Shown here: piece after piece, positions 950-35,702 of the stretch
Numbering within the stretch: position 1 is the first letter of the stretch
Layout of the letters: every line of letters begins with the position of its first letter
Assembly (NCBI GenBank): GCA_024689585.1
Contig: JAILDF010000172.1
Location: 1-43,145 of the forward strand
DNA: 43,145 nucleotides
DNA from: Oribacterium sp.
GTDB lineage: Bacteria; Bacillota; Clostridia; Lachnospirales; Lachnospiraceae
Reading direction: 5' to 3'
Notes under the pieces: generated by a model
Told to the model about the DNA's origin: nothing
Databases searched by the model: none
Seen by the model: the letters and a program-made list of their open reading frames with translations, nothing else
Program-made: the position numbers and the translations under genes

Positions 950-1173
950 CAGAGACGGCAGGCTTCCATTCAAAAACGTTGAGCAAGGCGCTGAAAAATC
1001 GAAATCGGACCCCTTAGAACCACTTGGCTCTATTTTCCTTAGCCCCCTCGCCAAGTCAGATTTTTCATAAAGAAAATATCTGACATTGGCGAGGGCCTAG
1101 TGGTTCTTAGGGGTCCGATTTCGGATTTTTCCGCCGAAGCGACCCGTTTTTGAATGGAAGCCTGCCGTCTCTG
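950..1173. repeat. Long nested hairpin element A
   Basis: Outer 29-bp perfect inverted repeat CAGAGACGGCAGGCTTCCATTCAAAAACG (950-978) / CGTTTTTGAATGGAAGCCTGCCGTCTCTG (1145-1173); inner arms TCGGACCCCTTAGAACCACT / AGTGGTTCTTAGGGGTCCGA; apical CCTCGCCAAGTCAGAT...ATCTGACATTGGCGAGG. Confidence 0.93.
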
Positions 1174-8063: not shown

Positions 8064-8292
8064 GGAACGAGCGGTCGGGCATCCATTTGAATGCGTTGAG
8101 CTGAGTCGAGAAAAATCAATATCAGACCCCTTAGAGGCTCTTGATCCATTTTCCTTAGCCCCCTCGCCAAGTCTGAGTTTTCATAAAAGTAAACTCAGAC
8201 ATTGGCGAGGGTCTAGAGCCTCTTAGGGGTCTGATATTAGATTTTTCCGACGAAGCGACTCGCATTCAAATGGATGCCCGACCGCTCGTTCC
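8064..8292. repeat. Long nested hairpin element B
   Basis: Outer 32-bp perfect IR GGAACGAGCGGTCGGGCATCCATTTGAATGCG (8064-8095)/(8261-8292); inner ATATCAGACCCCTTAGAGGCTCT / AGAGCCTCTTAGGGGTCTGATAT; apical CCTCGCCAAGTCTGAGTTT...AAACTCAGACATTGGCGAGG. Confidence 0.95.
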
Positions 8293-25001: not shown

Positions 25002-25039
25002 AGCGGTCGGGCATCCATTTAAATGGATGCCCGACCGCT
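25002..25039. repeat. Collapsed derivative of long hairpin family (element D, 38-bp perfect palindrome)
   Basis: AGCGGTCGGGCATCCATTT|AAATGGATGCCCGACCGCT; its 19-nt arm is identical to the outer-arm segment of element B. Confidence 0.92.
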
Positions 25040-32111: not shown

Positions 32112-34751
32112 ATGAAGGAACTTGCTAAACAGTACAATCCGGAAGAGGTTGAGGACCGCATTTATGAAATGTGGATGAAAGGTAATTATTTTCATGCAGA
32201 GGTAAATGCCAATAAAAAGCCATTTACCATCATGATGCCTCCTCCAAACGTAACCGGACAGTTACATATGGGACATGCTCTCGACAATACATTACAGGAT
32301 TCACTTATCCGTTTTAAGAGAATGCAGGGTTACGAGGCTCTCTGGCAGCCCGGATGTGACCATGCAGCCATTGCTACAGAGGTTAAGGTTACCAATAAAC
32401 TTAAGGAGCAGGGCATCGACAAGCATGATCTCGGACGTGAGGGATTCCTTAAGGAGGCATGGAAGTGGAAGGAAGAATATGAGTCAAGAATCGTTGACCA
32501 GCTCCACAAAATGGGTTCCTCCGCTGACTGGGACAGACTCCGTTTCACTATGGATGAGGGCTGTTCAAAAGCTGTTGAGACAACCTTTATAAAGCTTTAC
32601 AAGAAGGGCTATATCTATAAGGGCTCACGTATCATTAACTGGTGCCCGGTTTGCCATACATCACTTTCCGATGCCGAGGTTATCCATGAGGAGCAGGAAG
32701 GACATTTCTGGCATATCAATTACCCTATCGCAGGACAGGAAGGCAGATTTATCGAGATCGCCACAACAAGACCTGAGACAATGCTTGGTGATACAGCGGT
32801 TGCAGTTAACCCTGAGGATCCGAGATATAAGGATCTCATCGGAAAGAATGTCAAGCTTCCTCTTACAGACAGGGAGATCCCTATCGTAGGAGATGAGCAT
32901 GCCGATATGGAGGTTGGTACAGGTGCTGTTAAGATCACTCCTGCACATGACCCTAACGACTTCGAGGTAGGAAAGAGACATAACCTTCCTGAGCTTAACA
33001 TCATGAATGATGATGCTACCATCAACTGCCCGGGCTCAAAGTATCACGGTATGGATCGTTACGAAGCCCGTAAGCTCATCGTGGAGGATCTCAAGGAGCT
33101 CGGTCTTCTGGTTAAGATCATGCCTACAAAGCACAATGTCGGAACCCACGACCGTTGCGGTACAACCGTTGAGCCTATGATCAAGCCTCAGTGGTTTGTA
33201 AAGATGGCTGAGATGGCTAAGCCTGCTATCAAGGCTATAGAGACCGGTGACCTTCAGTTTGTTCCCGAGAACTACTCAAAGACATATCTTCACTGGCTTG
33301 AGAATATCAAAGACTGGTGTATCTCCAGACAGCTTTGGTGGGGACACAGAATCCCGGCATATTACTGCGATGATTGCGGTGAGATGGTGGTTTCTTCAGA
33401 GGTTCCGACAGTTTGTCCTAAGTGCGGAAAGAATCATTTCACACAGGATCCGGATACTCTGGATACCTGGTTCTCAAGTGCTCTCTGGCCTTTTGAGACA
33501 TTAGGATGGCCTGAAGAGACACCTGAGTATAAATATTTCTATCCTACAAATGTACTTGTAACAGGTTACGATATAATTTTCTTCTGGGTAGTACGTATGG
33601 TATTCTCCGGAATCGAGCAGACAGGAAAGGTTCCTTTCGGAAAGGTACTTATCCATGGTCTTGTAAGAGATGATCAGGGACGTAAGATGAGTAAGTCCCT
33701 TGGAAACGGTATCGATCCTCTTGAGGTTATCAAGACTTACGGTGCTGATGCCCTTCGTATGACACTTCTTACAGGAAATGCTCCGGGAAATGACATGCGT
33801 TTCTACTGGTCAAGAGTAGAGGCATCACGTAACTTCATGAACAAGGTATGGAATGCTTCAAGATTTATCATGATGAATCTTGATAAGGCAGATATCCCTG
33901 AGACAATGCCGGAAAACCTCTCAATGGCTGACCGCTGGATACTCAGCAAGGTTAATAACCTGGTTACCGATGTTACACGTAATATGGAGGCATTTGACCT
34001 TGGTATCGCTCTTGATAAGGTTCAGAACTTCATCTGGGAAGAGTTCTGCGACTGGTATATCGAGATGGTTAAGCCAAGACTCTGGAGTGAGGAGGATGAG
34101 ACAAAGGGTGCAGCTCTCTGGACTCTTAAGCATGTTCTCATCACATCTCTTAAGCTTCTTCATCCATTCTGTCCGTTCATTACAGAGGAGATTTACGATA
34201 CACTTACTGACAGTTCATCACCTCTTATGAGACAGGATTGGCCATCTTACGATAAGGCTCTTGATTTTGCTGAGGATGAGGCTGAGATCGAGGCTATAAA
34301 GGAAGCTGTACGTGCTATCAGAAATATCCGTACAGAGATGAATGTTGCTCCTTCCAGAAAGGCCCAGAACTATGTTGTTACAACCAACGACAGAGTAAGA
34401 AAGACTTTCGAGCACAGTAAGGTATTCTTTGCTACTCTTGCTTATGCTTCTGAGGTATTTATCCAGGAGGATAAGAACGGTATCGCTGATGATGCGGTTT
34501 CTGTAGCTATTCCTGATGCGGTTATCTACATTCCGTTTGCGGATCTTGTGGATATCGAGAAGGAGAAGGAGAGACTTCTCAAGGAAAAGGCTAAGTGGGA
34601 GGCTGAGATCAAGCGTTCCGAGGGCATGCTCAATAACGAGCGTTTCATCTCCAAGGCACCTGAGGCTAAGGTTCAGGAGGAGAGAGACAAGCTCGAGAAG
34701 AATAAACAGATGCTCAAGCAGGTTACTGACCGACTTGAGGCACTTCACTAA
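32112..34751 (+). CDS. valS: Valyl-tRNA synthetase
   Basis: PPPNVTGQLHMGHALDNTLQD (HIGH), GCDHAAIATEVKV, DQGRKMSKSLGNGIDPLE (KMSKS), C-terminal coiled coil. Confidence 0.98.
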   Translation: MKELAKQYNPEEVEDRIYEMWMKGNYFHAEVNANKKPFTIMMPPPNVTGQLHMGHALDNTLQDSLIRFKRMQGYEALWQPGCDHAAIATEVKVTNKLKEQGIDKHDLGREGFLKEAWKWKEEYESRIVDQLHKMGSSADWDRLRFTMDEGCSKAVETTFIKLYKKGYIYKGSRIINWCPVCHTSLSDAEVIHEEQEGHFWHINYPIAGQEGRFIEIATTRPETMLGDTAVAVNPEDPRYKDLIGKNVKLPLTDREIPIVGDEHADMEVGTGAVKITPAHDPNDFEVGKRHNLPELNIMNDDATINCPGSKYHGMDRYEARKLIVEDLKELGLLVKIMPTKHNVGTHDRCGTTVEPMIKPQWFVKMAEMAKPAIKAIETGDLQFVPENYSKTYLHWLENIKDWCISRQLWWGHRIPAYYCDDCGEMVVSSEVPTVCPKCGKNHFTQDPDTLDTWFSSALWPFETLGWPEETPEYKYFYPTNVLVTGYDIIFFWVVRMVFSGIEQTGKVPFGKVLIHGLVRDDQGRKMSKSLGNGIDPLEVIKTYGADALRMTLLTGNAPGNDMRFYWSRVEASRNFMNKVWNASRFIMMNLDKADIPETMPENLSMADRWILSKVNNLVTDVTRNMEAFDLGIALDKVQNFIWEEFCDWYIEMVKPRLWSEEDETKGAALWTLKHVLITSLKLLHPFCPFITEEIYDTLTDSSSPLMRQDWPSYDKALDFAEDEAEIEAIKEAVRAIRNIRTEMNVAPSRKAQNYVVTTNDRVRKTFEHSKVFFATLAYASEVFIQEDKNGIADDAVSVAIPDAVIYIPFADLVDIEKEKERLLKEKAKWEAEIKRSEGMLNNERFISKAPEAKVQEERDKLEKNKQMLKQVTDRLEALH

Positions 34752-34762
34752 TTAAAACTTAC

Positions 34763-35197
34763 GCCTGAGTCAGTGGGCATCCTTTTTATAACGGATAGCT
34801 TTGGCGGAAAAATCAAAATCTGACTCCTACGAGGCTGTGGGCATCCTTTTAAAATCGAGGCGCCTTGGCAGAAAATCTAAAACAGACCCCCTAAGAACCA
34901 CTAGGCCCTCGCCAAAGAAAGAATCCTATCGGATTCTTTTGAACCGCTCAAAGCCGCGCGGCTCCCAGGATTAAAAAACAAATCCTGGGCAGAAATGTCA
35001 GATATTTTCTTTATGAAAAATCTGACTTGGCGAGGGGGCTAAGGAAAATGGGACCAAGTGGTTCTAAGGGGGTCTGTTTTGATTTTTCAAGCCTCGGCTT
35101 TACGATTTTAAAAGGATGCCCACAGCCTCTAAGAAGTCAGAGTTTGATTTTTCTAGTTTAATTTTACGAAATAAAAAGGATGCCCACTGACTCAGGC
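34763..35197. repeat. Long nested hairpin element C (double element with internal 79-bp insert)
   Basis: Outer 27-bp perfect IR GCCTGAGTCAGTGGGCATCCTTTTTAT (34763-34789)/(35171-35197); inner 27-bp perfect IR GAGGCTGTGGGCATCCTTTTAAAATCG (34831-34857)/(35103-35129); GTCAGATATTTTCTTTATGAAAAATCTGAC is the exact reverse complement of the element A apex. Confidence 0.95.
34916..34994. repeat. 79-bp insert in the apical part of element C
   Basis: Interrupts CGCCAA|ATGTCAGA relative to element A (CGCCAATGTCAGA); contains AGAATCC/GGATTCT, AGCCGCGCGGCT and CCCAGGATT/AATCCTGGG stems; homologous to 9957-10032. Confidence 0.8.
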
Positions 35198-35222: not shown

Positions 35223-35702
35223 ATGAAGATTACACTTATTACAGTTGGAAAAATTAAAGAAAAGTATCTGAAAGACGCCATTGCTGAATATTCAAAGAGG
35301 CTTAGTGCTTATTGTGATATCAATATTATCGAGCTGCAGGACGAGAAGACGCCGGACAGGGCACCGGCGGCGGTGGAGGAGAAGATCAAGGAGACTGAAG
35401 GAGGACGGATTCTTCAGAAGATTGGGGACAGGGCTTATGTGATTGCGCTGGCTATCAACGGGGATATGCTTAGTTCTGAGGAGCTGGCGGAGAAGATGTC
35501 GGATCTTATGGTCAGGGGGAACTCGGATATCGTGTTTGTTATCGGAGGGTCCCTGGGGCTTTCGCCGGAGGTTCTCAAGAGAGCGAATTATAAGCTCAGT
35601 TTCAGCAGGATGACTTTCCCGCACCAGCTTATGAGGGTGATTCTTCTGGAACAGGTTTACAGGGCTTTCAAGATAAACAGTAATGAGCCGTATCATAAGT
35701 GA
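35223..35702 (+). CDS. rlmH: 23S rRNA (pseudouridine1915-N3)-methyltransferase RlmH
   Basis: [74 protein letters not shown]...PYHK. Confidence 0.97.

Follow-up and report, generated by a model that had tools for sequence, protein, structure and literature searches.

Long perfect hairpins raise an old question, namely how they originate and how they are kept up. Palindromic intergenic repeats of the ERIC and YPAL type have been reviewed (PMC2229807, PMC10969869) and catalogued (PMC2267715). The small mobile repeats SMR-A of Haloquadratum sit in the near-terminal palindromes of PATE and IS605 elements (PMC3119063), and several IS elements, including ISPsy8 (at the hairpin symmetry axis), IS1397 and ISKpn1, insert into REP hairpins (PMC1525189). 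Template-switch mutation has been described as a process that creates and keeps hairpins (PMC8794818). Here we describe a hairpin between valS and rlmH of a rumen Oribacterium sp., element C, in which a member of a repeat family is nested inside another member of the same family.

The window, i.e. the whole stretch of DNA that was analysed, is 43,145 nt long (contig JAILDF010000172.1 of assembly GCA_024689585.1; the source genome is referred to as G000). It contains element C with its two neighboring genes, two single family members and a bare stub:

950..1173, plus strand: single family member, core on the plus strand
8064..8292, plus strand: single family member, core on the plus strand
25002..25039, no strand assigned: bare family stub (AGCGGTCGGGCATCCATTTAAATGGATGCCCGACCGCT), in the same state in NK2B42 and nearly the same in KHPX15
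32112..34751, plus strand: valS (valine--tRNA ligase); element C starts 11 nt past its stop codon
34763..34789, plus strand: left arm of the outer unit, 27 bp, perfect partner of 35171-35197
34790..34830, plus strand: left second-level stem of the outer unit (GGCGGAAAAATCAAAATCTGACTCCTAC), delimited partly by the family alignment
34831..34857, plus strand: left arm of the inner unit, 27 bp, perfect partner of 35103-35129
34858..34913, plus strand: left second- and third-level stems of the inner unit, up to CCCTCGCC
34914..34993, plus strand: 80-bp insertion between GCC and AATGTCAG in the inner apex, a second dispersed repeat with three short hairpins
34994..35049, minus strand: apex hairpin of the inner unit with the conserved asymmetric core (ATTTTCCTTAGCCCCCTCGCC on the minus strand)
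35050..35102, plus strand: right third- and second-level stems of the inner unit
35103..35129, plus strand: right arm of the inner unit
35130..35170, plus strand: right second-level stem of the outer unit
35171..35197, plus strand: right arm of the outer unit
35223..35702, plus strand: rlmH; its start codon lies 25 nt past the end of element C

The preliminary description of this DNA had reported two concentric 27-bp inverted repeats, each followed by a family block, around an inner core in reversed orientation. Both inverted repeats are present and perfect, the blocks follow them as claimed, and CGAGGGGGCTAAGGAAAAT indeed corresponds to the reverse-complemented core of the copies at 950-1173 and 8064-8292. 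The outer unit, described as having apparently lost its own apex, has neither third-level stem nor core, and the whole inner unit stands in their place; according to the family alignment, these missing parts of the outer unit would be expected to follow position 34830. The motif GGGCATCCTTTT has four exact occurrences, all within the arms of element C, and nine matches in the window with at most one mismatch (0.33 expected). The 435 nt of element C fold as a single hairpin under both RNA and DNA parameters, with an energy of -251 kcal/mol as compared to -117 +/- 7 for shuffles (z about -20). The orthologous site in NK2B42 (G004) carries a bare hairpin whose arms match the outer arms of element C. 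We confirm that element C is one hairpin built of two concentric family members.

The 80-bp repeat adds a third layer to element C that was absent from the preliminary description; the same site is occupied in several other family copies, and insert-free copies lack it there. Rickettsia palindromic elements are found in frame inside protein genes. The 80-bp repeat is similar to them in that it also occurs in frame in a protein gene, and in element C it is a passenger, not the element itself. It forms a family of its own (34914-34993 of the window, L027 1501-1565, which is G000 C185:11006-11070, and L016 1501-1583). In L027 it lies in frame in a MutS2-like-looking open frame of 665 residues, to which it adds the peptide KERILTDSSEPLKAARLPQLK, and a short ORF in L016 reads it in the same frame (KERILSDSLEPLKAARLPRLK).

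The conserved core of the family (CTTAGCCCCCTCGCCAAGTC) is also found in Oribacterium sp. KHPX15 (G012), NK2B42 and one Lachnospiraceae assembly. In G000 it has 20 matches at up to three mismatches, versus 0 for a reversed control; this genome contains about 22 core-bearing copies plus bare stubs, and further copies are more diverged. Searches with the 221-bp consensus gave matches in 9 of 17 Oribacterium genomes and in none of 249 other sampled genera of Lachnospiraceae, where distant relatives could be missed because three candidates were scored per genome. In the consensus unit, the 27-bp arm contains the motif GGGCATCC; the second-level stem lies around GAAAAATCAAAATC, the third-level stem reads TTAGAACCACTTGG or TTAGAGGCTCTTGG, and one strand of the apex hairpin, TTTTCCTTAGCCCCCTCGCC, is conserved and asymmetric. 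The family is multi-copy, dispersed and intergenic, and it folds into a long single stem-loop with conserved pairing, two properties that it shares with palindromic intergenic repeats, of which it is a new variant. Its arms differ from locus to locus yet stay perfectly paired, and there is no constant element end; the fixed terminal inverted repeats and constant target duplication of a MITE were not found, the junction repeats ranging from 0 to 6 bp. A profile search found the Y1 transposase PF01797 in G000, G004 and G012 and no match in G013, G005, G007 and G008, all of which carry the family, and mobilisation by RAYT/Y1 was rejected on this inconsistent presence. A phage, plasmid or viral origin was rejected on zero matches among the plasmids, phages and viral contigs searched, and a known structured RNA on a comparison with the Rfam-curated RNA families, with no match at the gathering threshold and none meaningful at a relaxed one.

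We also note that NK2B42 contains about 30 Y1 transposase matches, many of which are truncated by the end of a contig; this suggests that an IS200-like element was active recently and breaks up the assembly. In G011, copies L111, L118, L125 and L133 keep the inner core and have locus-specific outer arms with CCATAC/GTACTGTG at the arm tip; L111, between convergent genes, has terminator-like arms. A third hairpin family (CAGTTCAGCCGGGGCA..TGCCCCGGCTGAACTG) was seen in G000 (C230/L019 and C87/L022) and in G012 (L041 and L044); at locus C230 it is bare in NK2B42 and KHPX15 and encloses a full element in G000, which is a further kind of nesting.

Among the 27 copies examined in G000, 26 directly follow the 3' end of one ORF or more (7 of these gene-end copies are flanked by convergent genes), none lies inside an ORF, and the sole copy between divergent genes has short, doubtful ORFs on both sides. 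Judging by position, the most likely role of the family hairpins is that of transcription terminators or of 3'-end hairpins. A T run is present in some stubs (those of KHPX15 and NK2B42 at locus C227); element C has no T run directly after the arm, and a terminator pattern scan of it returned weak internal sites only. A single repeat family is rebuilding many gene ends in this bacterial lineage.

The preliminary description had pointed to the valS-rlmH gap of relatives as the place to look for intermediates, and single, stub and double states are all found there. G000 has the double hairpin; G013 has a single unit with its own core and outer arms homologous to those of element C; NK2B42 has an arm-only stub (GCCGGAGTCAGTGGGCATCCTTTTTATAAAGGATGCCCACTGACTCCGGC); KHPX15 has a short terminator of the 10-bp class (GAGCCGGAGG..CCCCGGCTC). 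The gap is very short and without a hairpin in G005, G007 and G008, and longer and unrelated in G006. The polarity of these states is based on three or four species. Since related species carry one hairpin, a bare stub or a short terminator at the same site, the hairpins grow and shrink at their tips.

A comparison across G000, G004, G012 and G013 covered 26 orthologous gaps. According to two-piece alignments, the clean short forms consist of a left-arm prefix and a right-arm suffix joined at a direct repeat: TTTAAA at C288a, GCAT at C253, ATGC at C85, TC at C312, CG at C107 and TAGAG at C128. Except where stated, loci with unclear breakpoints (C126, w951, C227, C168, C296, C24, w8069 and C201/G004) and the valS stub (1-2 bp repeat) were left out of the evidence. 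The repeats at the joins vary in position and in length (2-6 bp at clean stubs), which fits deletion and differs from the target duplication of a transposon, and the clean stubs are best read as apex deletions at microhomologies, mostly scars rather than ancestral empty sites, so that the process would run in both directions. Insertion with a fixed target duplication was considered; TTTAAA fits it at C288a, but the other loci show other repeats and lengths, and we therefore read TTTAAA as a deletion microhomology as well. Locus C87, with a full element in G000 and an older GATGCATC terminator kept in three relatives, indicates that some copying to new sites occurs. At C151 of G000 (L249 1475-1590) there is a second, lone right-arm-like TTTTAAATGGATGCCCGCCGGC about 40 nt past the bare stub, absent from NK2B42.

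Element C is one of three doubles. Locus C162 of G000 has the same architecture (outer arms AGAGCCGAAGGGCATCC, inner arms AGAGGCAGTGGGCATCC, with strongly different tips) and unrelated terminators in relatives. The third double was found in KHPX15 by a search for the tandem-arm pattern, and its ortholog in NK2B42 is also double. G013 has a different terminator at this locus, and in G000 the inner unit is gone except for GAGCTGGTGG of its left arm, joined at GTGG, which makes this locus a collapsed double. The growth model of the preliminary description is revised on these points: most stubs are best read as apex deletions, one G000 locus is a collapsed double, and the 80-bp insert adds a layer. 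In all three doubles, exactly the outer third-level stem and core are missing, both units share the same orientation, the outer unit ends with CTAM and the inner one begins with GAG(G/C)(C/T)..GGGC. The three inner units form no single clade in the tree, with weak node support, which suggests separate nesting events at the three loci.

G000 is a metagenome-assembled genome in 317 contigs (77% complete), and a double hairpin could in principle be produced by assembly. The unique flanks of element C match the valS and rlmH of relatives on both sides, however, and the longest exact match between this locus and the other fetched G000 copies is 56 bp; as this match is confined to the inner apex, those copies do not share the outer-inner junctions. 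The third double in both isolate genomes (KHPX15 and NK2B42), together with its collapsed remnant in G000, makes an assembly artefact very unlikely indeed.

Without its insert, the inner unit is most similar to C107 (87% identity), which has the same insert at the same place, while its identity to its own outer unit is about 68-70%, no closer than to many other copies. The outer left segment of element C is nearest to the G013 ortholog (73%). The tree neighbor of the inner unit is another copy than C107 (support 0.79), so that identity and tree disagree on the donor. At the junction, the outer third-level stem (AGAGGCAGT) is similar to the base of the family arm (AGAGCCAGT), and this holds on either side; a two-sided switch at this point would therefore swap the outer apex for a whole copy.

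The arms change in concert. In an alignment of 44 copies, two-sided changes are found in 59 of 75 pairs, and 96.7% of cells are paired as compared to 82.9% in shuffles and at most 49% with slid partners. There are 370 two-sided Watson-Crick changes versus 49 G-U, 36 A-C and 72 other-mismatch cells; these are counts, not events, because related copies are not independent. Nine orthologous pairs give 63 matched two-arm changes, 38 one-sided changes and 6 two-sided changes without restored pairing. Transversions make up 50 of the 63 matched changes (79%) versus 126 of 296 in the flanks (P = 8e-8, uncorrected for linkage among changes). At C312, one matched change, T-A to A-T, is the only difference within the element between G000 and G004. 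This pattern favors matched arms having been copied, from another locus or across the hairpin, rather than slow G-U compensation; template switching is a general proposal for such copying (PMC8794818).

We favor, with moderate confidence, the replacement of the outer apex by another family copy, probably through a template switch or ectopic conversion at AGAG(C/G)C. An older unit at valS-rlmH, still single in G013, would have lost its third-level stem and core, and a complete second member, with the 80-bp insert already aboard, would have taken the place of the apex, giving a hairpin within a hairpin. The route would be a template switch during replication or ectopic gene conversion, with homology on both sides of the palindrome between the start of the outer third-level stem, AGAGGC(A/T)GT, and the base of the donor arm, AGAGCC(A/G)GT. 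Events of the same kind could explain the matched-pair changes of the arms at a locus, and on the reverse path the apex would be deleted at short repeats within the two arms, leaving stubs and collapsed forms. Of the growth by nested insertion or template switching proposed earlier, the nesting stands, supported by the ladder of states, two more doubles and an inner unit nearer to other members; of the two routes, a templated one is probable. More tentatively, and with less confidence than in the event at valS-rlmH, the family may be a self-nesting repeat that spreads and grows transposase-free: template switching at internal homologies would copy matched arms from locus to locus and exchange the apex of one copy for another whole copy, microhomology deletion would trim the result, and the gene-end hairpins would form an evolving ladder of lengths.

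Templated replacement is favored over insertion because the junction is fixed and lies at an internal homology, and because precisely the outer apex is lost. The junction homology is only 6-8 bp and degenerate, so that an insertion into an apex-truncated stub would leave a nearly identical product. A MITE-like element mobilised by a transposase in trans could have entered the loop of a hairpin truncated by an earlier deletion, since apex-truncated outer units do stand alone (e.g. KHPX15 at C128, ending ..CCCTTAGAG.CCTCTAAGG), the new-site gain at C87 is something a transposase could do, and small repeats or IS elements are known to insert into palindromes (PMC3119063, PMC1525189). We consider this unlikely, though the most serious rival: the lack of a constant target duplication, the locus-specific, perfectly paired arms without a constant end, and the absence of Y1 (this transposase family only) from four carriers all count against it. 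Less likely still is a local duplication, in which slippage backward, from the third-level stem of the outer unit to that copy's own outer arm, would duplicate 64 nt on one side and hairpin-templated repair would copy them to the other. In its favor, the left segments of the two units form a direct repeat with a spacing of 64 nt and 73% identity, and the unusual GGGCATCCTTTT is common to both units. Identity does not support such an origin, as many other copies are at least as close to the inner unit as its own outer unit is. The inner unit also carries a whole apex, core and insert, all missing from the outer unit, and in C162 the arm tips of the two units differ strongly.

Selection on 3'-end RNA pairing by stepwise compensation, with nesting as a neutral accident, would be consistent with the strong pairing covariation and with the position of copies behind stop codons. 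It is improbable as the main explanation, given that G-U intermediates are far outnumbered by two-sided changes, that A-C cells are about as frequent as G-U cells, that transversions predominate among the matched changes of orthologs, and that C312 differs within the element by one matched change alone. Pairing selection may additionally be at work alongside the apex replacement that we favor.

Gene-end sites of this family can be read as double, single, collapsed or stub, their two arms change in matched fashion, and intermediates are few. A few more strains would therefore allow template switching, ectopic conversion and transposition to be told apart directly; element C and its relatives form an informative natural series. 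Among the known systems closest to the family are ERIC and YPAL, which are likewise dispersed, mainly intergenic, transposase-free and shaped as one long stem-loop with length variants. It differs from them in sequence as far as tested (no Rfam match), in its greater length and several stem levels, and in recurrent self-nesting and apex collapse at orthologous sites. With SMR-A it shares prominent inverted repeats, the lack of a target duplication and a place inside the palindromes of other elements; SMR-A, of about 110 bp, is archaeal and targets another class of element, whereas Oribacterium members nest in their own family and replace the apex of the host unit. IS elements in REP hairpins also insert at or near the apex. 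They differ in coding for transposases, and ISPsy8 in the short repeat that it leaves on each side; the Oribacterium elements show neither feature. Under the template-switch model, stems should be perfect and the two arms should change together with no intermediate steps, which resembles the Oribacterium pattern; the model was described on the short stems of rRNA and other RNA genes, not for a repeat family that grows by nesting.
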